Shown here: positions 27,250 through 36,774 of the stretch, one piece after another
Position numbering within the stretch: the stretch's first letter is position 1
Layout: every line of letters begins with the position of its first letter
Origin: Pseudomonadales bacterium
Lineage (GTDB): Bacteria; Pseudomonadota; Gammaproteobacteria; Pseudomonadales; Azotimanducaceae
Assembly: GCA_029248675.1 (NCBI GenBank)
Contig: JAQWIX010000004.1
Span: forward strand, 1-36,774
Direction: 5' to 3'
DNA length: 36,774 nucleotides
Notes under the pieces: generated by a model
What the model was told of the DNA's origin: nothing
The model's database searches: none
What the model saw: only the letters and a program-made list of their open reading frames with translations
Program-made: the position numbers and the translations under genes

Positions 27250-27537
27250 ATGTGGTTGACATCCAAAACGCTGCTGCTTTTCACAGGCGGGGTCTGCACG
27301 GTGCTGGGTTTCGTGGGACTGGCCATACCCCTGATGCCGGGGTTCGTTTTTTTTGCGATTGCTGTTATTTGCTTTTCCTCTGCATCACCCACACTGCACC
27401 GTAAGCTTACTGCAGTGCCAAAGATCGAGCAGTTCCTACAGAGCGTACAAGACAGCCGTCATATGCCTCTTGGGCAGCGCGTTACCAAGGGCGCGAAACA
27501 GGCCGCACGGCTGCTAAAGAGCGGACGTCATGAGTGA
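27250..27537 (+). CDS. short DUF454-like membrane protein
   Basis: A 95-residue membrane protein from ATG 27250 (or 125 residues from GTG 27160; neither start has a strong ribosome-binding site). Two close hydrophobic helices are joined by VGLAIPLMPGFVFFAIAVIC, followed by FSSASPTLHRKL. That is the signature region of DUF454 (YbaN-type) proteins, where it reads like G-x-x-x-P-L-L-P-T-T-P-F. The C-terminal membrane half of DUF454 is replaced by a short basic tail. It overlaps the PfkB kinase gene by eight bases. Function unknown. Confidence 0.75.
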   Translation: MWLTSKTLLLFTGGVCTVLGFVGLAIPLMPGFVFFAIAVICFSSASPTLHRKLTAVPKIEQFLQSVQDSRHMPLGQRVTKGAKQAARLLKSGRHE

Positions 27538-28450
27538 GACCACTGCCCCAGAGATCGCCGTGATGGGGGCCTTGGCCTACGACCAAATCGCTAAAACAGA
27601 CAAAGTTTTTGGCCCGGAAGGCCCTGGTCTTAACTGCAAAGTTACCGCTCAACAAGAATTTTTCGGGGGTTGCGCCGGCAACATCGCTTACGGACTTGGC
27701 TTGCAGCAAGTACCTGCCATCGTCATTTCCAGCGCCGGGGGCGAGGACTTCAGGCGCTATGCCCAGCATTTGAATTTAGACCTCAGCGGCATTCTGGTGG
27801 TGTCCGGGGCCCAATGCGCTCGAGCCAACATCATCACTGACCCGAATGGTCAGCAATTTACGGCCTTTGCGCCGGGACCCAGCATCGCGGCGGAAACCTG
27901 GCAAGTACATCTGAGCAACCAGCCATTAGAATCGGCACCCATATTCGTCTGTGCACCCTTCCCCGCCGAATTGATGAGGCTGGCCCTCGCCGAGTCGCGC
28001 CGGCGTAATCCTGACACTTTGAATATTTGGCTCCCCGGCCAGTACGCGGACAATTTAGACGCCAACGTACTGGAGCAAAGTGCCGAGCTCAGCGACGTCA
28101 TCATTGGCAACAGCCACGAAATGTCCCATATTCGCGGCATGGCCCCCAAGTCCTTAGCCGGCAAGGTGGCCATTGAAACCAACGGTTCCCGCCCTGTTCG
28201 TGCCCTACTACCCGATGGCAGCCAGCGCACATTACCCGTGCCCGCTGTGACGAATCACCTAGATCCCACTGGCTGTGGCGACGCCTTTGTGGCGGGTATC
28301 CTGCCGGAAATTCTAAAGTCTCTTAAGACTGCCGGCCGGCCCCGTTGGCATACCGAAATCAATAATGTAATCCGAGCAGGCATTCGACATGCTGCCAAGT
28401 GCCTAGTCCGGCAAGGCTCCCAAACCTACGAATTGAGCATGGAATCATGA
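27530..28450 (+). CDS. PfkB-family carbohydrate/nucleoside kinase
   Basis: A 306-residue ribokinase-fold kinase. The N-terminal PfkB signature is FFGGCAGNIAYGL (about 45-57). The C-terminal signature DPTGCGDAFVAG (245-256) carries the catalytic Asp251 and anion hole. The usual T-G-A-G-D has Cys in place of Ala, a variant I also recall in adenosine-kinase-like bacterial proteins. The substrate could be a sugar or a nucleoside such as adenosine; the sequence does not decide. It starts MSETTAP within the end of the DUF454-like gene, and its stop overlaps the next start as ATGA, so three genes are coupled. Confidence 0.9.
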   Translation: MSETTAPEIAVMGALAYDQIAKTDKVFGPEGPGLNCKVTAQQEFFGGCAGNIAYGLGLQQVPAIVISSAGGEDFRRYAQHLNLDLSGILVVSGAQCARANIITDPNGQQFTAFAPGPSIAAETWQVHLSNQPLESAPIFVCAPFPAELMRLALAESRRRNPDTLNIWLPGQYADNLDANVLEQSAELSDVIIGNSHEMSHIRGMAPKSLAGKVAIETNGSRPVRALLPDGSQRTLPVPAVTNHLDPTGCGDAFVAGILPEILKSLKTAGRPRWHTEINNVIRAGIRHAAKCLVRQGSQTYELSMES

Positions 28451-29451
28451 GTGACAACGATTGGCTTGCGAGCGTGCCACGGCTAGAGCTTGGACACGGC
28501 CCGACGCCGCTGGAACCCCTGCACCGCTTAAGCCGTGAGTTGGGCGGCCCCATGATTTGGTTGAAACGCGATGACTGTACTGGACTTGCGACCGGCGGTA
28601 ACAAAACACGAAAACTCGAATACCTGATGGCAGATGCTTTGGAGCAAGGAGCCGACTGCATCGTTACCTACGGGGCAGTGCAGTCAAACCACGCCCGACA
28701 AACCGCTGCTGCCTGCGCCAAACTCGGCTTACCCTGCCACCTGTTGCTTAGCCAGCGCGTGGATTGGCCTCATGAAAGCTATCAAACCCAGGGCAACGTG
28801 CTGCTGGATAAATTGCTAGGCGCCATCCTGCACACCAGCTCACTGGAGGACGCCGCTACTGCGCGCAAAAAGCTCCTTGAAAAGCTGCATGGGGAAGGAC
28901 GCCGGGTTTATGAGATCCCCGCCGGAGGTTCTAGCCCTGTTGGCGCCCTAGGCTACACCCGATGCTTAGAAGAATTGATGGCTCAATGTGCCGATCAAGG
29001 GGTGGGCGGCAATCTCATCGTTCACGCTTCCGCCAGCGCCGGAACCCAAACGGGTCTGGTTTTTGGCAAGAGTGTGTTGGATTTAGATGCCAAGATCTTG
29101 GGCATCAACGTGTTCCATCCGGATCCTCAAACACTCAAGGACAGAGTGACCCAACTCGCCACCAAGATGGCTGAAAGCTGGCCACAGGCAGAGCTGAAGC
29201 AGGCCTTTGATGTTCAAGTGAACCACGCGTATTTCGGTGAAGGTTACGGTCAACCGACCCAAGGCTGCATAAGGGCCATCAACATGGCTGCCCAACTCGA
29301 GGGCCTGTTGTTTGATCCCGTGTATTCGGGTAAGGCCCTAGCCGCTCTGATTGACCAGATCAATCTGGGCAACCTCAATCACTTGGACGATGTGATTTTG
29401 ATTCATACCGGTGGCGGCGCCAGTTTAGGCGCCTACATCGATGCCTTTTAG
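28447..29451 (+). CDS. D-cysteine desulfhydrase / ACC deaminase-family PLP enzyme
   Basis: A 334-residue fold-type II PLP enzyme. D-cysteine desulfhydrase splits D-cysteine into pyruvate, sulfide and ammonia; ACC deaminase relatives open aminocyclopropane carboxylate. The PLP lysine is Lys53 in LATGGNKTRKLEYL. YGAVQSNHARQTAAA is the phosphate-side loop, and IPAGGSSPVGALGY and IHTGGGASLGAY are further conserved segments. The start ATG 28447 overlaps the kinase stop (ATGA); a longer frame exists upstream but is internal to the kinase. The enzyme choice is by overall resemblance to DcyD/YedO; ACC deaminase activity is possible. Confidence 0.88.
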   Translation: MSDNDWLASVPRLELGHGPTPLEPLHRLSRELGGPMIWLKRDDCTGLATGGNKTRKLEYLMADALEQGADCIVTYGAVQSNHARQTAAACAKLGLPCHLLLSQRVDWPHESYQTQGNVLLDKLLGAILHTSSLEDAATARKKLLEKLHGEGRRVYEIPAGGSSPVGALGYTRCLEELMAQCADQGVGGNLIVHASASAGTQTGLVFGKSVLDLDAKILGINVFHPDPQTLKDRVTQLATKMAESWPQAELKQAFDVQVNHAYFGEGYGQPTQGCIRAINMAAQLEGLLFDPVYSGKALAALIDQINLGNLNHLDDVILIHTGGGASLGAYIDAF

Positions 29452-29468
29452 GCGTCACCCAATAGACC

Positions 29469-30272
29469 TTAGCCGACGAACATTCCACCGTTAGGGAACA
29501 GGGTTTGGCCGTTAAAGTAACTGGATTCGGCGCTGGCAAGAAACAACGCCGTGCTGGCTATCTCGTTGGCCTGCCCCATCCGCTGCATGGGCGTCATAGA
29601 CATAACCGTTTCCATCCATTCCGGTGATTGACGGATATTGGCTGTCATCGGTGTTTCGATAAAACCCGGGCAGATGGCATTCACGCGGATATTGGCGGTG
29701 CTGTACTCTGTTGCAACGGTCTGAGTCAACATGATGACCGCAGCTTTGGACACGCAATAGTCTGAAGCGCCGGGCAATGGGCGCCGACCAGCGATGGAGG
29801 CGATATTTACAATGGTGCCATGAGTTTCCTTGGCCAACATATGACCAATGGCCACTTTGTTGGTGAGCATGACGCCAGTTACATTTACGGCCATGACCTT
29901 TTCCCAGTCGGCCAATTCACGATTGTGAAATAGACGCTCTTCTGGGTCCGCCTCTACTTCGCTTACTTCACCGCTGATGTAACCGGAAGAGGAAACGCCT
30001 GCCGCTGCCAGCACCGTGTCCACTCGGCCGTAGCGTTCCACCACGTCAGCAAAAAGCGCTTCTTGGCTGGCCTGAGAGGTTACATCTACTTGAACAAATT
30101 CAATGCTCGCTCCACTGGCCGACATTTCGGCGGCGGCATTGGCTCCACGTTCGGCATTGATGTCCGCCACCACGACCTGCGCCCCTTCTGCTGCGTAACG
30201 AAGTGCGCTGGCACGGCCTAGACCGCTGATACCACCGGTAATTACCGCAACTTTATCCGTTAATGCTCCCAT
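29469..30272 (-). CDS. short-chain dehydrogenase/reductase (SDR), possible LvaD-like
   Basis: A 267-residue classical SDR. The nucleotide loop is TGGISGLG (12-19). Asp37 (VADIN) after the second strand favours NAD(H). The catalytic residues are Ser159 (NIASIAG) and YxxxK at Tyr172-Lys176 (YCVSK). An insertion of about 20 residues (about 100-120) precedes the dimer helix. AGGGG lies six bases before the ATG. It is the last gene of the minus-strand run acyl-CoA dehydrogenase, kinase, SDR, with a 93-base gap from the kinase. In that context it may interconvert a 4-oxo and a 4-hydroxy acyl-CoA; this role is inferred from neighbours only. Confidence 0.9.
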   Translation of the reverse strand: MGALTDKVAVITGGISGLGRASALRYAAEGAQVVVADINAERGANAAAEMSASGASIEFVQVDVTSQASQEALFADVVERYGRVDTVLAAAGVSSSGYISGEVSEVEADPEERLFHNRELADWEKVMAVNVTGVMLTNKVAIGHMLAKETHGTIVNIASIAGRRPLPGASDYCVSKAAVIMLTQTVATEYSTANIRVNAICPGFIETPMTANIRQSPEWMETVMSMTPMQRMGQANEIASTALFLASAESSYFNGQTLFPNGGMFVG

Positions 30273-30365
30273 AGCTTTCCCCTCTCGTTTTACTGCTGGT
30301 TTGCTGCTGTTTGGTTGTTACTTGTCGCACATGATCCCTGCTTTTGCCTAAGCTTGGAGCTACCG

Positions 30366-31796
30366 CTAAACGCCGGCTCCTCCCTCTAGGGCTGTTGCCA
30401 AGCCGGGATAGCGAGGCTGATCGATGTTGATCTGATTCACAATAGCCCCTCTCAAGTGTTCGGCCAAGCCGGGAGAATCCAAAGCCACACGACCATCCCG
30501 TAGCCCTTTCACCAATTGCCAGCGAAGTTCTTGTAACTGGGTTTCCTCACTCCTGCATAGCTTGCGCAACCGACCCACTTCGGCTTCGGCAGCGGCCCGG
30601 CCAAACACCATCTCGCGCTGAACAATTTCTAAGGAGTTGCTGGCCACACGCGCCAAAAACTGAGTTCTGCCTTGAGTATCTGCCATGACTTGCTCCCGCA
30701 AAAAAGTCACAACGCTGGTGAGCAATTCATCCGCGCGCGGCATATCGACTAAGCCCGCCCCCTCGTCGCCAGCAACTAACGACACAGGCCCGGGAATGAG
30801 CAGGTTCACGCAATCCACTTGGCACTCAGACGAACGGCGACCGATGCCCGGGCGCTCGACGCTTTGATCCGGGCCATTGCGGTAGTGCTCGGCCATGCCA
30901 AGACAACCCACGGCCCACCAAAACGAGCCGAAAACCTGCCAGAACTTCACAGCCTGCCGATCAATCGTTTGGCCTGTTACCGATTCATAACCGGCGAAGA
31001 AGTCCTCGGCTTGACCAAAGCCACCCACAGGTAAGTGGGCTCGACCGAAACGCCAGGAATGGCACAGCATCCAGCCCAAATCCCGCATCGGATCCCCAAT
31101 GTGTGCAACTTCCCAATCCAGAACAGCAACCATGCCCGATGGATCTACCATCACGTTGCCATTGCGATAATCGTTGTGCACGAGGCTGGGAGTGTAGTTT
31201 TGGGGCAAATGATCCAGCAGCCAGCGAGCGGTAAAATCGATCATCGGCTGGGGTGTCTCAAAGGCCTGATAACGCTCCCAAGTCTGGCGTACATAGTCCT
31301 CGGGACTCAGGTGTTGAAGATGCTGGTCCAAACCGCTGGCTTGCAGGTCGATACTGTGAATGCGCGCCAAGGTCTCCCCGAACATGTGGGCCAATTGGGG
31401 GCGAACCTGATCCAACTCCGGGTCTTTGACAATGCGTGCGCCCAGGGCCTCCCCCTCTAGCCATTCCATAATGAAACCGGCGCCAAGCCCCTCTTCAGGC
31501 CGCAAGACGTGGAACACCTGAGGCTCCGGAACGCCATGCTCTCGAGCAACTTGCATCAACTTGGCTTCCACGGCTAGGCCGGGATGCTGGGCGGTAATTT
31601 CCCCCTCTTCACCACCGGCAGCCCGGCGCATGGCGAGCAATCGCTGATCGCCAGAACCGCTAATGACGATTCGGTAAGTTTCTTGACTGGCACCACCGGA
31701 TAGACGCTCTAGCTGAACCAGTGCTTGGCAATCCTCAATTACCTTGGGCAGTAGTTGCCCCAATGCCTCGGTCAGCTCGCTATGAGACAGGCTCAA
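30366..31796 (-). CDS. APH-like acyl kinase fused to a DUF6285-like domain
   Basis: A 476-residue protein. Residues 1-345 are an aminoglycoside-phosphotransferase-fold kinase: the catalytic loop LVHNDYRNGNVMVD has Asp209, the metal Asp227 is in VLDWEVAHIGDP, and the IGRRSSECQVD segment is typical of the ACAD10/11 and LvaA branch. Residues about 352-470 (from ELLTSVVTFLREQV, through RVASNSLEIVQREMVFG, to VNQINIDQPRYPG) resemble DUF6285, normally a separate small protein that follows this kinase. The start is a TTG at 31796; AGGGAGGA lies six bases upstream and no ATG is near. It is two bases from the acyl-CoA dehydrogenase stop. The kinase class is firm; the fused domain is my reading by pattern. 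Confidence 0.85.
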   Translation of the reverse strand: MSLSHSELTEALGQLLPKVIEDCQALVQLERLSGGASQETYRIVISGSGDQRLLAMRRAAGGEEGEITAQHPGLAVEAKLMQVAREHGVPEPQVFHVLRPEEGLGAGFIMEWLEGEALGARIVKDPELDQVRPQLAHMFGETLARIHSIDLQASGLDQHLQHLSPEDYVRQTWERYQAFETPQPMIDFTARWLLDHLPQNYTPSLVHNDYRNGNVMVDPSGMVAVLDWEVAHIGDPMRDLGWMLCHSWRFGRAHLPVGGFGQAEDFFAGYESVTGQTIDRQAVKFWQVFGSFWWAVGCLGMAEHYRNGPDQSVERPGIGRRSSECQVDCVNLLIPGPVSLVAGDEGAGLVDMPRADELLTSVVTFLREQVMADTQGRTQFLARVASNSLEIVQREMVFGRAAAEAEVGRLRKLCRSEETQLQELRWQLVKGLRDGRVALDSPGLAEHLRGAIVNQINIDQPRYPGLATALEGGAGV

Positions 31797-31798
31797 GA

Positions 31799-33070
31799 TT
31801 AGTCCTCCCTCACACCCTTGGGCGCTCTTTGCCCCATAAAGCCAAAGAGGTACCCGGCCACTCGGCGCATTTGGATTTCTTCCGCGCCTTCCGTAATACG
31901 GTATCGGCGGTGATGACGATAAATGTGCTCAAAGGGCTTATGCCGGCTGTATCCCAATCCACCATGCACCTGCATGGCGCGGTCTGCGGCTTCGCAGCAA
32001 AGTCGATTGGCCCAGTAATTACACATGGACACTTTGTCCGATACTGAGAAGGCCCCGTAGGTATCCATTTGCCACGCGGTTTTGTGAATCAGCGCGCGCA
32101 ACATCTCGCATTGGGTCTGCAACTCAACTAAGGGGAATTGAATGCCTTGGTTGGTGGAAAGCGGTTTGCCGAATGGCGCGCGATGCTTGGCGTATTCGAT
32201 GGACTCATTCAAACAAAACTGCGCGGCGCCCAAGGATGATGCTGCTTGGCGAATTCGGTTTTCGTTAAAAAAGTGCTGTACGACCCCTAGCCCGCGGCCT
32301 TCACCACCAAAAATCGACTCGTGAGGCACCCGCACGTCTTTCATGGTTACCGTGCCGTGGTCTGTGGGCATATTGAATGTCCACAACATTTCTTCCACCT
32401 TGAACCCCTCGCTGTTTGTTGGGGTCAAGAAAGCCGTAATGCCGTCGCCATCGCCAGCCTTGCCACTGGTGCGGGCAAAAATAAGATCGTGCTTCGCTTT
32501 GTGAATGCCCGTGTTCCAAGTTTTAGAGCCGTTGATGATCCACTCATCGCCGTCCCGAACCGCCGTAGTTTCCATATGCGTTGCATCAGAACCGTGGTCC
32601 GGCTCAGTGATACCAAAGGCAAAACCTGCACGACCCTCGGCCAAATCGTCGATCCAAGCCGCCTTCTGCTCGTCGGTACCGTACTCGATCATCAGCAACA
32701 AGCCCACATTGTTGCCCACGATGGAGTGCTCGTTCTGCAAATCGTTATGCAAGCCAAGGCCCATAGCGGCGAAATGCTCACGAATGATGGCCATACCCAA
32801 GTTGGTGCCTTCTTGGCCGCCATATTCCTTAGGTAGGGGGTAACGGTAATGGCCAGCATCGTCTGCTAATCGCTTCGCCTTAGACAGCAGCGCCTCCCAC
32901 TCCTCGTTAGGCAAGCCCCCGCGCTCCCAATCTGTGCGAGCATCCTCTCGGCGATGATCAAAGAAGCGGATGTTGTCATCGGCATTCTCTAGCGGTTTGA
33001 TGGTGTTCTCGATAAACGCATCGAGTTCATCCAAATAGTTTTGCAGATCTTGGGGAATATCGAAGTTCAT
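31799..33070 (-). CDS. ACAD10/11-type acyl-CoA dehydrogenase
   Basis: A 423-residue FAD flavoprotein of the acyl-CoA dehydrogenase fold. Visible are the ARTDWERGGLPNEEWEALL head, the flavin-contacting FAFGITEPDHGSDATHMET, WIINGSKTWNTG, and QVHGGLGYSRHKPFE. The end ITEGAEEIQMRR holds the Glu at the usual catalytic-base position. This subfamily pairs with, or in animals is fused to, an APH-like kinase, and handles 4-hydroxyacyl-CoAs through a 4-phospho intermediate (ACAD10/11, LvaC). The ATG at 33070 has AAGGAGG five bases upstream; the frame extends upstream, but that part is unconserved. First gene of the three-gene operon. Confidence 0.93.
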   Translation of the reverse strand: MNFDIPQDLQNYLDELDAFIENTIKPLENADDNIRFFDHRREDARTDWERGGLPNEEWEALLSKAKRLADDAGHYRYPLPKEYGGQEGTNLGMAIIREHFAAMGLGLHNDLQNEHSIVGNNVGLLLMIEYGTDEQKAAWIDDLAEGRAGFAFGITEPDHGSDATHMETTAVRDGDEWIINGSKTWNTGIHKAKHDLIFARTSGKAGDGDGITAFLTPTNSEGFKVEEMLWTFNMPTDHGTVTMKDVRVPHESIFGGEGRGLGVVQHFFNENRIRQAASSLGAAQFCLNESIEYAKHRAPFGKPLSTNQGIQFPLVELQTQCEMLRALIHKTAWQMDTYGAFSVSDKVSMCNYWANRLCCEAADRAMQVHGGLGYSRHKPFEHIYRHHRRYRITEGAEEIQMRRVAGYLFGFMGQRAPKGVRED

Positions 33071-33383
33071 GACGGCCTCCTTGATTGAATTTGAACCGCT
33101 TGTCCTCGCTATCGTAACGGGGCGCGGAAAGCATTGGGGGGCACGGACCAAGCATGGTTGGTTCTTCGAACAGTCACTGCACCCCTCCAAACGCAGGTCC
33201 CAAACGTTACGTTCTCGTATGCTCTGGCGCAACTGGGAAAACCTAACCAACGGCCAGCGCTGGTTTGGTCCCCGGCGCTTGAGCGTCAACCGATCACCCT
33301 CATCAATCACTCAGAAGATACGCTCACCGCTCATCCCTGCTAGGCTTAGGGACCGTGACCTTGGCAAGGATAGAGGCCCAAGC
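33071..33383. other. intergenic region between the acyl-CoA dehydrogenase and DUF454 genes
   Basis: 313 bases holding the divergent promoters of both transcription units. It contains the AAGGAGG ribosome-binding site of the dehydrogenase gene (33076-33082). Open frames run through it on both strands but look like non-coding extensions of the neighbouring genes: low-complexity, Arg/Ser-rich, without motifs. I saw no convincing promoter boxes, operator palindrome or RNA gene. Confidence 0.6.
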
Positions 33384-33737
33384 TTGAGATACCTTTGGAT
33401 CGGTTTTGGTTGGTTGTTCGTCGGTTTGGGTGTGATTGGCATCGCGCTACCCCTACTGCCGACCACACCCTTTTTGCTGCTGGCTGCCCTGTGCTTTAGT
33501 CGTGGATCCGAAAAAATCCACAGCTGGCTTTTAAATCACCCAACATTGGGGCCACCAATTCACGACTGGCAAACTAACCGCGCGATTTCACGCCGCAGTA
33601 AGGTAGTGGCGAGCCTCTCCATGATGGCTTTACTCATCATTACCCCCTTGGTCGGGGCGCCACTGTGGGCAGCGGCGCTACAAGGGGCGGTTTTGTGCGT
33701 TGTTGCGACGTTCCTCTGGACTCGACGAGAGCCCTAG
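33384..33737 (+). CDS. DUF454 (YbaN-type) inner-membrane protein
   Basis: A 117-residue membrane protein with the full DUF454 pattern. The first helix is followed by GVIGIALPLLPTTPFLLLAA, then CFSRGSEKIHSWLLNHPTLG and DWQTNRAISRRSKV, and two more helices to the end. The family is widespread in Proteobacteria and has no settled function. I take TTG 33384 as the start because AGAGG lies seven bases upstream and the first conserved helix begins there; the same frame is open for about 315 more bases upstream, but that part is unlike the family. A longer paralog-like relative fragment occurs at 27250-27537. Confidence 0.85.
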   Translation: MRYLWIGFGWLFVGLGVIGIALPLLPTTPFLLLAALCFSRGSEKIHSWLLNHPTLGPPIHDWQTNRAISRRSKVVASLSMMALLIITPLVGAPLWAAALQGAVLCVVATFLWTRREP

Positions 33738-33750
33738 TCGAGGCCCTAAC
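33726..33750. repeat. near-tandem repeat joining two converging stop codons
   Basis: CGAGAGCCCTAG (from 33726) is followed by CGAGGCCCTAAC (33739-33750), the same unit with one base missing. The first CCCTAG supplies the plus-strand DUF454 stop. The CTA of the second supplies the minus-strand stop of the deazaflavin-type reductase gene (33746-33748). Confidence 0.75.
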
Positions 33751-34168
33751 CCCGCCTTAGTCTAACCACGGGAATCTCTCGGTCAGTTTTGGCCTGATAC
33801 TCATTATAGGGAGGCCATATTTCGGCCATTACCTGCCAGATGCGAGCACGGTCATCGCCTTCTACAAGTTCTGCCGTAGCAGAAAACTTATCCGCAGCCA
33901 CCTGAACTTGCACTGCGTTGGAAGCCTCAATGTTTGTGTACCAGGCTGGGTGGTCAGGGTATCCGCCCTTGGAAGCAACAATGATGTGATCATCACCATC
34001 CTTGCCGTAGATCAGCGGCAGCATTCTGGGCGCACCGCTACTTCGACCCGTGGTCGTGAGGAGTAAGGTGGGTACGCCTCGCCAGATATGTCCGTCTTCG
34101 CCGTTGGTTTCTAGATACCGGTTCATGTGATCAACCGCCCAATCTGGCAGCGTTGTTCCTTCACTCAT
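33746..34168 (-). CDS. deazaflavin (F420)-type nitroreductase-family protein
   Basis: A 140-residue split-barrel protein of the DDN / DUF385 family. Characteristic segments are VPTLLLTTTGRSSGAPRMLP, LIYGKDGDDHIIVASKGGYP and HPAWYTNIEASNAVQVQV, and it ends with the ARIWQVMAEIWPPYNEYQ helix. Mycobacterial relatives bind the deazaflavin F420 and reduce quinones or nitro compounds. AGGAG lies six bases before the ATG. Ten bases separate it from the membrane protein gene upstream, so the two are probably one operon. Whether this organism makes F420 cannot be told; FMN use or a non-F420 cofactor is possible. Confidence 0.88.
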   Translation of the reverse strand: MSEGTTLPDWAVDHMNRYLETNGEDGHIWRGVPTLLLTTTGRSSGAPRMLPLIYGKDGDDHIIVASKGGYPDHPAWYTNIEASNAVQVQVAADKFSATAELVEGDDRARIWQVMAEIWPPYNEYQAKTDREIPVVRLRRG

Positions 34169-34177
34169 CTATCTCTC

Positions 34178-34642
34178 CTATTGATGATTTTGTTGAGTTT
34201 CTCTGTTTTCAAAGTCCGTCTGAAACAGGCTGCGCGAGCGCAGCAGCGCAATCATGGGAACCGAAAAAATTAATCCTGCGATGATGCCTGCAGAGATACC
34301 GCCGCCCCGTACATTAACCAGGTTCCAAACCACCATGGCGATCACGATTTGAATGGCATATACCCCGGCCCAGGGCCACATCCACGCTTTCATATGTCGA
34401 AAGCCATAGGCGCCGAAACCGTAGATCAACCAATGCAGTGGCTCGGTGGCTTTTGCCCACCAACCGGTTAGGGAATAGCCAAACCAAATCTCGTGATCCT
34501 CCGCTACCGGCTTCACAAACATGTCAAAGGGCATGTAAATGAATGTCATGTAGAGGCAAAAATAAAAGATAAGACTCATCCACAAAGGACGACGCCGATA
34601 ATCCTCCACAATGGCACTTTTCAAACCGACCATACTCGGCAT
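34178..34642 (-). CDS. four-helix membrane protein of unknown function
   Basis: I do not recognise the family. The 154-residue product has four likely membrane segments: WMSLIFYFCLYMTFIYMP, WLIYGFGAYGF, WAGVYAIQIVIAMVVWNL and ISAGIIAGLIFSVPMIALL. Aromatic residues are abundant (many Trp and Tyr), and the termini are short and hydrophilic, with a polar C-terminus. GGGAG lies seven bases before the ATG. It immediately precedes the deazaflavin-type reductase gene on the same strand, so it may be that protein's membrane partner, for example for quinone access; this is inference from spacing. Confidence 0.75.
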   Translation of the reverse strand: MPSMVGLKSAIVEDYRRRPLWMSLIFYFCLYMTFIYMPFDMFVKPVAEDHEIWFGYSLTGWWAKATEPLHWLIYGFGAYGFRHMKAWMWPWAGVYAIQIVIAMVVWNLVNVRGGGISAGIIAGLIFSVPMIALLRSRSLFQTDFENRETQQNHQ

Positions 34643-34673
34643 TTGATCTCTCCCGCCCCGTTGTACTTCGCAC

Positions 34674-35648
34674 CTAGCCTACTTGATTTGGCAGCGGCTC
34701 TCCCGCAGCAAAAGCACGAATGTTCGCCAGAGCACATTCGCCCATGGCAACCCGAGTTTGGGTGGTACCGCTTCCCATATGCGGCAGTAACACCACGTTT
34801 GCCAGCTCGACCAAGCCCTTGGCCAATTTAGGCTCGGCCTCGTAAACGTCCAAGCCTGCGCCGGCAATCACCCCGCTGCTTAACGCGCGAACCAGGTCAG
34901 ATTCGTGCACCACATCACCCCGAGCCGTATTGATTAGATGGGCCTCGGGCTTCATCAAGGCCAGGGTTTCACTGTTGATCAAATGACGCGTTTGCTCAGT
35001 TGCAGGACAGTGCAGGCTCACAAAATCCGACTGCTCCAGTAGCTCTTCTAAACCGCAATACCGGGCAGGCAGGCCATCGAGAACATGAGCGCTTTGTGGC
35101 CTCCGCCCAGAATACAGGACTTCCATTCCCAAGCCGAAATGGGCCTGACGGGCAAAGGCCAAACCAATACGGCCAAGACCGATAATGCCGAGGGACTTCC
35201 CGGAGACCTGAGTCGACAGCATATGAGTTGGATGCCAGCCAGCCCATTTTCCGGCACGGACTAAGCGCTCGCCTTCAGCGGTTCTGCGCGCTGTACTCAA
35301 TAGTAAGGTCAGGGCAATTTCAGCAGTTGCGTCGGTTAGCACGCCCGGGGTGTTCGTGACTGCTATACCTCGGCGACTGGCCGTCGCCGTATCAATATGG
35401 TTAAAACCCACACCGAAATTGGCCAGTAGTTTAGTTTTCACCTGTGCGGCGCCAAGCAAGTCTGCGGTAATCGCGTCGGTGACCGTAGGGCAAACCACGT
35501 CTGCCCAGGCCAGCGCAGCACCCAGTTCCTCTTGGGTCATTCCGCGGTTTTCTTGGTTGATTCGCAAATCAAAGTGCTCGCCCAAGACCTGCTCCACGGA
35601 CTCGGGCCAGCGTCGTGTTAGAGCCACTCGCAGTTTCACTTTATTCAC
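34674..35648 (-). CDS. D-2-hydroxyacid dehydrogenase (glyoxylate/hydroxypyruvate reductase-like)
   Basis: A 324-residue NAD(P)-dependent D-2-hydroxyacid dehydrogenase. The substrate-side segment NFGVGFNHIDTATA is followed by TNTPGVLTDATAEIAL. The Rossmann loop is GLGRIG (157-162), followed by SGRRPQ, whose arginines suggest NADPH preference. The catalytic set is Arg243 (TARGDVV), the Glu in DVYEAEP and His290 (LLPHMGSGT). The closest functional class is D-glycerate dehydrogenase / glyoxylate reductase. The start is GTG 35648, with AGGGAG five bases upstream. It is divergent from mmsA. The gap to the membrane-protein gene downstream is only 31 bases, so the three minus-strand genes may be one transcript. 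Confidence 0.9.
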   Translation of the reverse strand: MNKVKLRVALTRRWPESVEQVLGEHFDLRINQENRGMTQEELGAALAWADVVCPTVTDAITADLLGAAQVKTKLLANFGVGFNHIDTATASRRGIAVTNTPGVLTDATAEIALTLLLSTARRTAEGERLVRAGKWAGWHPTHMLSTQVSGKSLGIIGLGRIGLAFARQAHFGLGMEVLYSGRRPQSAHVLDGLPARYCGLEELLEQSDFVSLHCPATEQTRHLINSETLALMKPEAHLINTARGDVVHESDLVRALSSGVIAGAGLDVYEAEPKLAKGLVELANVVLLPHMGSGTTQTRVAMGECALANIRAFAAGEPLPNQVG

Positions 35649-35747
35649 AAACTCTCCCTAGGCAGTTTTTCGGCAGTCAAGATTCTTTTGCGGGCAATCT
35701 GAGCATAAACTGTTTCTGTTTCGAAATGAGGGGCATACGAGAGGACT

Positions 35748-36774
35748 ATGAGCAAATCTTATCAACACTTCATCAATGGACAGGTTGTCCAAGGTACATC
35801 CGGACGTAGCAGCGAGATTTTCAATCCAAGCACTGGTGAGGTATCAGGATCGGTAACCCTTGCGACTACCGGAGAGCTGGACGACGCCGTTTCTGCAGCG
35901 AGGGCCGCGCTACCCGAGTGGTCGGCTATGAACCCCCAGCGCCGGGCAAGAGTGCTGTTCAACTTCAAAGCCCTAGTGGAGGCGAACGCCACCGAGCTGG
36001 CACAGATTCTCTCTGAGGAACACGGCAAAGTGCTGGCGGATTCCTTGGGGGACATTCAGCGAGGCCTCGACGTGATCGAGTTTGCCTGTGGTGTGCCGCA
36101 CCTGCTCAAGGGCGAATACACCCCAGGGGCAGGACCCGGCATCGACGTTTACAGTATGCGTCAGCCCGTTGGCGTTGCCGCAGGCATCACACCATTCAAC
36201 TTTCCCGCCATGATCCCTATGTGGATGTTTGGCGTAGCCATCGCAACAGGCTGCACCTTCATTTTGAAACCGTCGGAAAAGGATCCGGGGGTACCCATGC
36301 GTTTGGCAGAACTGATGATGGAAGCCGGCGCACCTGCCGGCGTTCTCAACGTGGTAAACGGCGACAAAGAGGCCGTCGACGCGATCATCAACCATCCAGA
36401 TATTCGCGCTGTGAGCTTCGTTGGCTCATCGGATATCGCCCATTACGTCTACCAAGGTTGTGCTGCTCAGGGTAAGCGAGTCCAAGCCATGGGCGGGGCC
36501 AAAAATCACGGCATTATTTTGCCTGATGCGGACATGCAGCAAGCGGTACAAGACATTACCGGTGCCGCATATGGCTCGGCGGGCGAGCGATGCATGGCGC
36601 TCTCAACTGTGGTGGCTGTCGGCAACGAAACCGGTGACCGTTTCGTTGAGGCCATGACCAGCGAGCTGGGCAAGCTAAATGTGGGAATTTCAACGGATCC
36701 CGCAGCAGACTATGGCCCCGTGGTCACGGCAGCCCATAAGCAGCGGGTAGAGGACTACATTCAAATGGGTGTGG
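35748..36774 (+). CDS. mmsA: methylmalonate-semialdehyde dehydrogenase (CoA-acylating), partial
   Basis: The first 342 codons; the gene runs off the right edge of the window (full family length is about 500). The enzyme oxidises methylmalonate or malonate semialdehyde to propionyl- or acetyl-CoA in valine, thymine or inositol breakdown. The typical MmsA start HFINGQVVQG is present, then AGITPFNFPAMIPMWMF with the oxyanion Asn151, and LKPSEKDPG. The catalytic Cys282 lies in GSAGERCMALS. The CoA-acylating subclass is indicated by the absence of the Glu found in ordinary aldehyde dehydrogenases: the stretch reads QAMGGAKNHG. The ATG is preceded by GAGAGGA at very short spacing. Confidence 0.93.
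   Translation, partial: MSKSYQHFINGQVVQGTSGRSSEIFNPSTGEVSGSVTLATTGELDDAVSAARAALPEWSAMNPQRRARVLFNFKALVEANATELAQILSEEHGKVLADSLGDIQRGLDVIEFACGVPHLLKGEYTPGAGPGIDVYSMRQPVGVAAGITPFNFPAMIPMWMFGVAIATGCTFILKPSEKDPGVPMRLAELMMEAGAPAGVLNVVNGDKEAVDAIINHPDIRAVSFVGSSDIAHYVYQGCAAQGKRVQAMGGAKNHGIILPDADMQQAVQDITGAAYGSAGERCMALSTVVAVGNETGDRFVEAMTSELGKLNVGISTDPAADYGPVVTAAHKQRVEDYIQMGV

Follow-up and report, generated by a model that had tools for sequence, protein, structure and literature searches.

We describe a conserved pair of genes in a 36,774-nucleotide stretch of DNA from a Pseudomonadales bacterium of the Azotimanducaceae (assembly GCA_029248675.1, contig JAQWIX010000004.1), in which an acyl-CoA dehydrogenase (ACAD), here called ACAD*, is followed by a kinase that carries a DUF6285 domain in its tail. 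The whole stretch is referred to as the window and is one 36.8-kb contig of a genome of 2.55 Mb in 192 contigs that is 91.7% complete. ACAD* and kinase/DUF6285 are a real unit, linked across Pseudomonadota and Actinomycetota. The kinase part can be recognized as LvaA and LvaB of the Pseudomonas lva (levulinate) pathway in a single chain, and the dehydrogenase belongs to a clade of its own. With the domain make-up, the fusion, the conserved linkage, the co-occurrence, and the residues and separate clade of the dehydrogenase computed, we lean slightly towards the view that the two proteins form one functional unit, which follows the logic of LvaABC with a different dehydrogenase and acts on a hydroxyacyl-CoA.

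Linkage of the dehydrogenase and the kinase

At least 584 relatives of the dehydrogenase were found in a scan of named genomes, and the 80 best matches were retained. Their record titles point mainly to gammaproteobacteria and actinobacteria; the remainder include metagenome-assembled genomes (MAGs) of alphaproteobacterial, myxobacterial and other origin. The closest named relatives among the matches listed are two gammaproteobacterial MAGs at 91%, one of them labelled marine gamma proteobacterium HTCC2089. Linkage was counted when tblastn found a kinase above 55 bits no more than 3 kb from ACAD*, a measure chosen because the caller of open reading frames (ORFs) favours antisense ORFs in GC-rich loci, and 63 loci had at least 3 kb on both flanks. 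By this measure 48 of the 63 loci are linked, 47 of them with DUF6285 as well, and by record title the linked loci belong to Pseudomonadota (28), Actinomycetota (19) and one unranked source. Genomes behind the loci without a kinase over the threshold carry one elsewhere in 14 of 15 cases (threshold 1e-20; E 1e-198 to 6e-46), and in locus L135 the kinase is found ~7 kb from ACAD*. Gene order varies, and kinase and DUF6285 may be fused or split and lie up- or downstream of ACAD*. For instance, most gammaproteobacterial loci read ACAD*-fusion, Nocardia has DUF6285-kinase-ACAD*, and Sulfitobacter has kinase-DUF6285-ACAD*. The Sulfitobacter genes stand in line with a ligase ahead of them and two crotonases, a thiolase and a TRAP transporter behind, a neighbourhood whose predicted products mark it as a catabolic context. 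The arrangement is also found in haloarchaea, where four plasmids (L163, L164, L165 and L167) carry ACAD*, a small protein of 157-159 aa and a kinase together. Genes for hydantoinase or of the acetone-carboxylase type adjoin three of these loci. It may be that the small protein is an analogue of LvaB or a diverged form of it.

Co-occurrence was examined in 61 genomes of the family to which the window belongs, with ACAD* called at E<=1e-100 and the kinase at E<=1e-40. ACAD* is present in 42 and the kinase in 45, that is, in all 42 genomes with ACAD* and in 3 of the 19 without it. The two are adjacent in 30 of the 42; in a single-contig genome (G422) both are present, 2.1 Mb apart. Across the wider class ACAD* is rare, occurring in 5 of 369 genomes at 1e-120.

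The kinase and its LvaB-family domain

The reference Lva proteins were taken from an lva operon on a Pseudomonas plasmid, where lvaB alone is named and the others were assigned by gene order (regulator annotated PrpR, kinase, lvaB, ACAD, short-chain dehydrogenase/reductase (SDR), synthetase, symporter). Against PF19802, which has a Pfam cut-off of 28.1, the tail of the window kinase scores 83.8 bits and the LvaB of this operon 85.3 bits, and the tail is the single match to DUF6285 in the whole window genome. Since LvaB itself scores at this level, DUF6285 can be read as the LvaB family and the window protein as a putative natural LvaA-LvaB fusion. Like LvaAB, it combines an LvaA-type kinase of the APH fold with an LvaB-family domain and keeps the invariant residues of the motifs HNDYRNGN and LDWE, which we take to be the kinase catalytic motifs. 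It differs in being one chain, in its identity to the plasmid proteins (32% to LvaA over the kinase half and 31% to LvaB over the DUF6285 half), and in its surroundings: no acyl-CoA synthetase, regulator or transporter was found among the nine neighbour proteins scanned (27530-36773), the first two absences having already been recorded by the initial annotation of this DNA. In KT2440, LvaA and LvaB interact and jointly turn 4-hydroxyvaleryl-CoA into 4-phosphovaleryl-CoA, as described in PMC6692424 citing Rand 2017, and growth on levulinate is stated there to require both proteins.

A quick tree of 44 kinases, in which the 25-hydroxysteroid kinase is absent, places the window protein among 35 sequences that include LvaA and Thermus kinases and are mostly associated with DUF6285. 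The branch that sets them apart has an SH-aLRT value of 99, and its other side holds nine sequences, namely the ACAD11 kinase, 3dxp, 9o56, two kinases from the same genome as the window, one Cupriavidus kinase and the three haloarchaeal kinases discussed below. Another kinase of the window genome, on contig C72, falls in the ACAD11-kinase group. The pair is not an ACAD10/11-type kinase-dehydrogenase fusion, as kinase and dehydrogenase are separate genes and the kinase lies across the branch. The initial annotation had proposed an LvaABCD-like cassette for 4-oxo and 4-hydroxy acids, and its account of the kinase holds up well: the APH-like kinase with a DUF6285-like tail is confirmed by Pfam (PF01636 and PF19802), the likeness to LvaA by the side of the branch on which it falls, and the presence of an LvaB part by the scores of the tail.

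Kinases of this type are also found in other settings. In Variovorax (L061) and Cupriavidus (L064) the neighbours of the kinase and DUF6285 are two additional ACADs of other types; the dehydrogenases found beside LvaAB-type kinases are thus of several kinds. Six loci from family genomes (L219, L220, L221, L224, L225 and L228) hold a kinase-DUF6285 fusion without an adjacent dehydrogenase, and at two of them (L221 and L228) an ACAD resembling one on contig C186 of the window genome lies one or two ORFs away.

The dehydrogenase clade

In ACAD11 the 4-phosphate is bound by R626, H634 and R637, D753 acts as the base, R631 is given as a general residue, and H597 lies near FAD, where its change partly lowers activity, according to the account in PMC12440821. 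In the alignment, R626, H634, R637, D753, R631 and H597 correspond to F, Q, S, E, R and H, respectively, of the window dehydrogenase, the phosphate-clamp positions being F267, Q275 and S278 and the catalytic residue E394, in RITEGAEEIQ. The same residues are found at every mapped position in 79 of 80 relatives, with one A in place of S; this tally covers the best 80 of at least 584 relatives, the 80 having identities of 73% or higher to the window protein, and the counts hold for this section of the family. The alignment also contains ACAD* proteins from Sulfitobacter and two from haloarchaea, with these same residues. By comparison, R626, H634 and the Asp are kept in 13 of 13 LvaC/ACAD11-class proteins, with position 637 an R in 12 and an H in one. 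The HCMR motif, the upstream Arg and the catalytic Asp are absent from the window protein and from all 80 tallied relatives; in the LvaC of the plasmid lva operon the motif aligns as THCMR. The equivalent of His597 is shared, being present in 80/80 ACAD* relatives and 13/13 LvaC/ACAD11-class proteins and in 0/7 ordinary ACADs chosen for comparison. ACAD* also has a conserved N-terminal stretch, RFFDHRRE, lacking from the other ACADs compared.

A quick tree of 47 dehydrogenases, which includes Sulfitobacter and three haloarchaeal proteins, gives separate branches for ACAD* (17 sequences, SH-aLRT 100) and for LvaC/ACAD11 (13 sequences, SH-aLRT 99), and a weakly supported node (89) suggests that the former lies beside the latter. 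By tree and residues ACAD* is placed in its own, uncharacterised clade, apart from LvaC/ACAD11. Its identity to the plasmid LvaC is 29%. The label of ACAD10/11-type or LvaC dehydrogenase that had been given to the window protein is ruled out by the missing clamp and Asp and by the tree. Relative to LvaC, ACAD10 and ACAD11, what ACAD* retains is the ACAD fold, the equivalents of R631 and of the FAD-proximal H597, and a linked kinase.

Relative to the ordinary ACADs of beta-oxidation, it shares the catalytic Glu and the range of its best PDB sequence matches, which are mostly short- and medium-chain ACADs, with the ACAD11-like 4hr3 in 18th place and ACAD11 in 29th. It is set apart from them by the linkage to kinase/DUF6285, by the H597 equivalent and by having no close PDB relative. 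When the AlphaFold2 model (mean pLDDT 87) was compared by fold, 4hr3 came first and ACAD11 seventh with near-equal scores, and the best fold match has 27% identity. For the LvaC of the plasmid lva operon (L065:9343-10515), there was no PDB chain match at E 1e-70, although PMC11342911 gives 56-62% identity between the LvaC of KT2440 and ACAD11/10.

Possible function of the pair

The linkage, the co-occurrence and the shared H597 support a place for kinase and ACAD* in the same short pathway. In the scheme we favour, the LvaB-bearing kinase would phosphorylate the hydroxyl of an acyl-CoA in an ATP-dependent step, and ACAD* would then handle this acyl-CoA in its phosphorylated (or dephosphorylated) form, allowing the carbon chain to enter beta-oxidation. 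We infer that the substrate is probably a hydroxyacyl-CoA, that ACAD* probably uses the product of the kinase, and that phosphate is probably eliminated. With the clamp absent and a Glu in place, ACAD* may hold the phosphate differently, act elsewhere on the chain, or plainly dehydrogenate while an LvaC-class enzyme removes the phosphate. A more specific proposal, which we offer tentatively and consider to be on the unlikely side, is that ACAD* is a second class of phosphoacyl-CoA-eliminating enzyme. It would take the product of LvaA-LvaB, hold the phosphate in a manner other than that of ACAD11 (or act at another carbon), use its Glu, pass electrons on, and release a 2,4-dienoyl-CoA and not a 2-enoyl-CoA; the unit would then be widespread in bacteria and would occur in haloarchaea with an unrecognised small protein.

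Several observations weigh against a joint pathway and must be set beside it. Lacking R626, H634 and R637 and having the ordinary Glu, ACAD* may be a normal dehydrogenase. Neither kinase nor DUF6285 is nearby in 14 of the 63 loci, and at locus L147 DUF6285 is nearby and the kinase-like fragment is weak. G393 and G425, which are among the 42 family genomes with ACAD*, have weak and partial kinase matches at 34-41% identity, and the Fisher p value for co-occurrence (5e-12) is uncorrected for kinship, with some of the ACAD*-less genomes incomplete. The 18 neighbour proteins from nine relatives' loci are mostly unrelated to fatty acids and give no common substrate hint. In haloarchaea, three kinases adjoining ACAD* are placed by the kinase tree on the same side as the ACAD11 kinase, on a long branch; the small protein beside them has no Pfam match over cut-off, DUF6285 included, in the three of four proteins tested, and hhalign against DUF6285 gave no support (four proteins, probability 1.8). 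The levulinate cluster of Pseudomonas citronellolis is described, in the part of PMC6692424 drawn on here, as having no lvaB, so that LvaB is not universal.

LvaC/ACAD11-class enzymes elsewhere in these genomes must also be counted among the opposing points. In the window genome 35 places match the ACAD middle domain, and among the 30 read for the HCMR motif at least three combine it with the catalytic Asp (C21:10014-11303, C161:20740-21987 and C186:4062-5138; loci L079, L080 and L081), the C21 protein scoring 405 bits against ACAD11. A fourth ACAD, on C161, has HGMH with the Asp. If the organism degrades 4-hydroxy acids in the ACAD11 way, the enzymes on C21, C161 and C186, and not ACAD*, would be the candidates. 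Matches to this class, by match and not by motif, were found at 1e-50 in 29 of 29 further ACAD* genomes, and 57 of the 61 family genomes have one at 1e-90. An ACAD11-type query gave nothing at 1e-90 in two family genomes (G403 and G415), each of which, searched less stringently, proved to encode enzymes of HCMR or HAMR type that bear the Asp. As no ACAD* genome was found without an LvaC-class match, such enzymes could serve the kinase. It may therefore be that the fusion makes a 4-phosphoacyl-CoA for them and that ACAD*, with its canonical Glu, carries out ordinary alpha-beta dehydrogenation before or after; in G422, for example, the fusion lies ~1.3 kb from an ACAD11-type gene. We judge this to be unlikely, however. 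ACAD* and the fusion are adjacent in 30 of the 42 family genomes with ACAD*, and the presence of ACAD11-type genes does not follow that of the fusion: at 1e-90 they occur in 40 of these 42 and in 17 of the 19 that lack ACAD*. The window genome also has the kinase on C72, in the ACAD11-kinase group.

A complete LvaABCD-like cassette, in which the SDR that follows the kinase in the window would make a 4-hydroxyacyl-CoA and the dehydrogenase would eliminate the 4-phosphate like LvaC, is improbable. The LvaA-type kinase and LvaB domain expected of it are present, but the dehydrogenase fails the LvaC/ACAD11 residue tests and sits in another clade, and the SDR is only 29% identical to the plasmid LvaD. 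SDR orthologues (at least 49% identity) occur in 13 of the 61 family genomes and lie beside the pair in the window genome and two congeners, one with an extra gene between; the named relative L085 has an orthologue (59%) next to the pair, separated from it by a NUDIX gene. The other 10 of the 13 family genomes have the SDR away from the pair: in G416 the distance to the fusion is 6.7 kb, and in the remainder the SDR is on another contig or the pair is missing. A different SDR, 44-48% identical to LvaD, is found within ~4 kb of ACAD* in six of the 80 relatives (L098, L100, L102, L119, L156 and L157), so a 4-oxo/4-hydroxy acid link is possible for some relatives, a point that speaks for the initial annotation. 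Placement in relatives rules out the SDR as a core part of the unit, and by identity and placement we take it to be neither LvaD nor a steady part; in the favoured scheme it would be an optional partner, with a possible role in forming or consuming the hydroxyl group in the genus of the window. Of the four parts of the cassette initially proposed, kinase and LvaB therefore stand, and dehydrogenase and SDR do not; similarly, of the two proteins expected to cluster with their Lva counterparts, the kinase does so and the dehydrogenase branches elsewhere.

It is equally improbable that the kinase targets a hydroxyl outside simple acyl-CoAs, for example that of a tertiary alcohol in a steroid or terpenoid, with ACAD* taking a later CoA thioester: Rv3168 (3ats) and the 25-hydroxysteroid kinase (9fsg and 9ft5) are fold matches 2 to 5 of the fusion model (mean pLDDT 93), but identity over the fold is just 19-21% and the window kinase groups with LvaA-type kinases in the tree described above. 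The Sterolibacterium enzyme shares the APH fold and serves a catabolic ATP-dependent dehydration, together with an unidentified phosphate lyase, for which the portion of PMC8449060 used here names no candidate near the gene; it differs in acting on a free tertiary alcohol and in its ~20% identity to the window kinase.

Implications

DUF6285, a Pfam domain of unknown function, can now be tied to LvaB, and LvaA-like and LvaB-like proteins are found naturally fused. The pair is a conserved one whose dehydrogenase cannot use the residues known from ACAD11, and it opens a test of how many ways there are to strip a hydroxyl from a fatty-acid chain via phosphorylation. Care must also be taken with annotation, as a kinase beside an ACAD is not automatically a levulinate pathway. 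Among the open-access papers listed, none is about the pair as judged by title and start of abstract, subscription journals being mostly uncovered, and the term 'DUF6285' does not occur in the open-access literature searched.

Organization of the locus

The features are listed in Table 1. The three consecutive minus-strand genes, with two bases between the first two, are as initially described, in agreement with ORFs, domains and stop/start positions. The dehydrogenase gene has an ATG start with GGAGG upstream, and exactly two bases separate its stop TAA from the TTG of the kinase. The SDR starts 93 bases downstream of the kinase and has a separate purine-rich stretch upstream of its ATG. A scan for promoters and terminators gave a site count no higher than in shuffles.

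Table 1 Coordinates of the dehydrogenase, the kinase fusion and the SDR in the window
Feature	Position	Strand	Remarks
Acyl-CoA dehydrogenase (ACAD*)	31799..33070	-	423 aa, catalytic Glu394; Pfam Acyl-CoA_dh N/M/C, tree, residues
ACAD* helix stretch F267-S278 (FFNENRIRQAAS)	32237..32272	-	By alignment, aligns with ACAD11 R626-R637 (RLGPGRIHHCMR)
LvaA-type kinase + LvaB (DUF6285) domain, putative fusion	30366..31796	-	476 aa, TTG start
APH kinase domain	30981..31712	-	Kinase residues 29-272; PF01636 129.7 bits; HNDYRNGN catalytic loop, LDWE
DUF6285, predicted LvaB-family domain	30408..30677	-	Kinase residues 374-463; PF19802 88.2 bits (genome-wide search)
SDR oxidoreductase	29469..30272	-	267 aa; PF13561/PF00106; genus-level neighbour, no LvaD orthologue

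Three further genes flank this group. At 28399-29451 (+) is a PLP enzyme whose nearest match is the D-cysteate sulfo-lyase CuyA, at 394 bits (cut-off 450). At 33746-34168 (-) is a deazaflavin (F420)-dependent nitroreductase-family protein (TIGR00026, 114.8 bits, cut-off 46), the host being a gammaproteobacterium. The third, at 34178-34642 (-), encodes a hydrophobic-looking protein of 154 aa that has no Pfam or NCBIfam match and is 80% conserved in a congener (L226).

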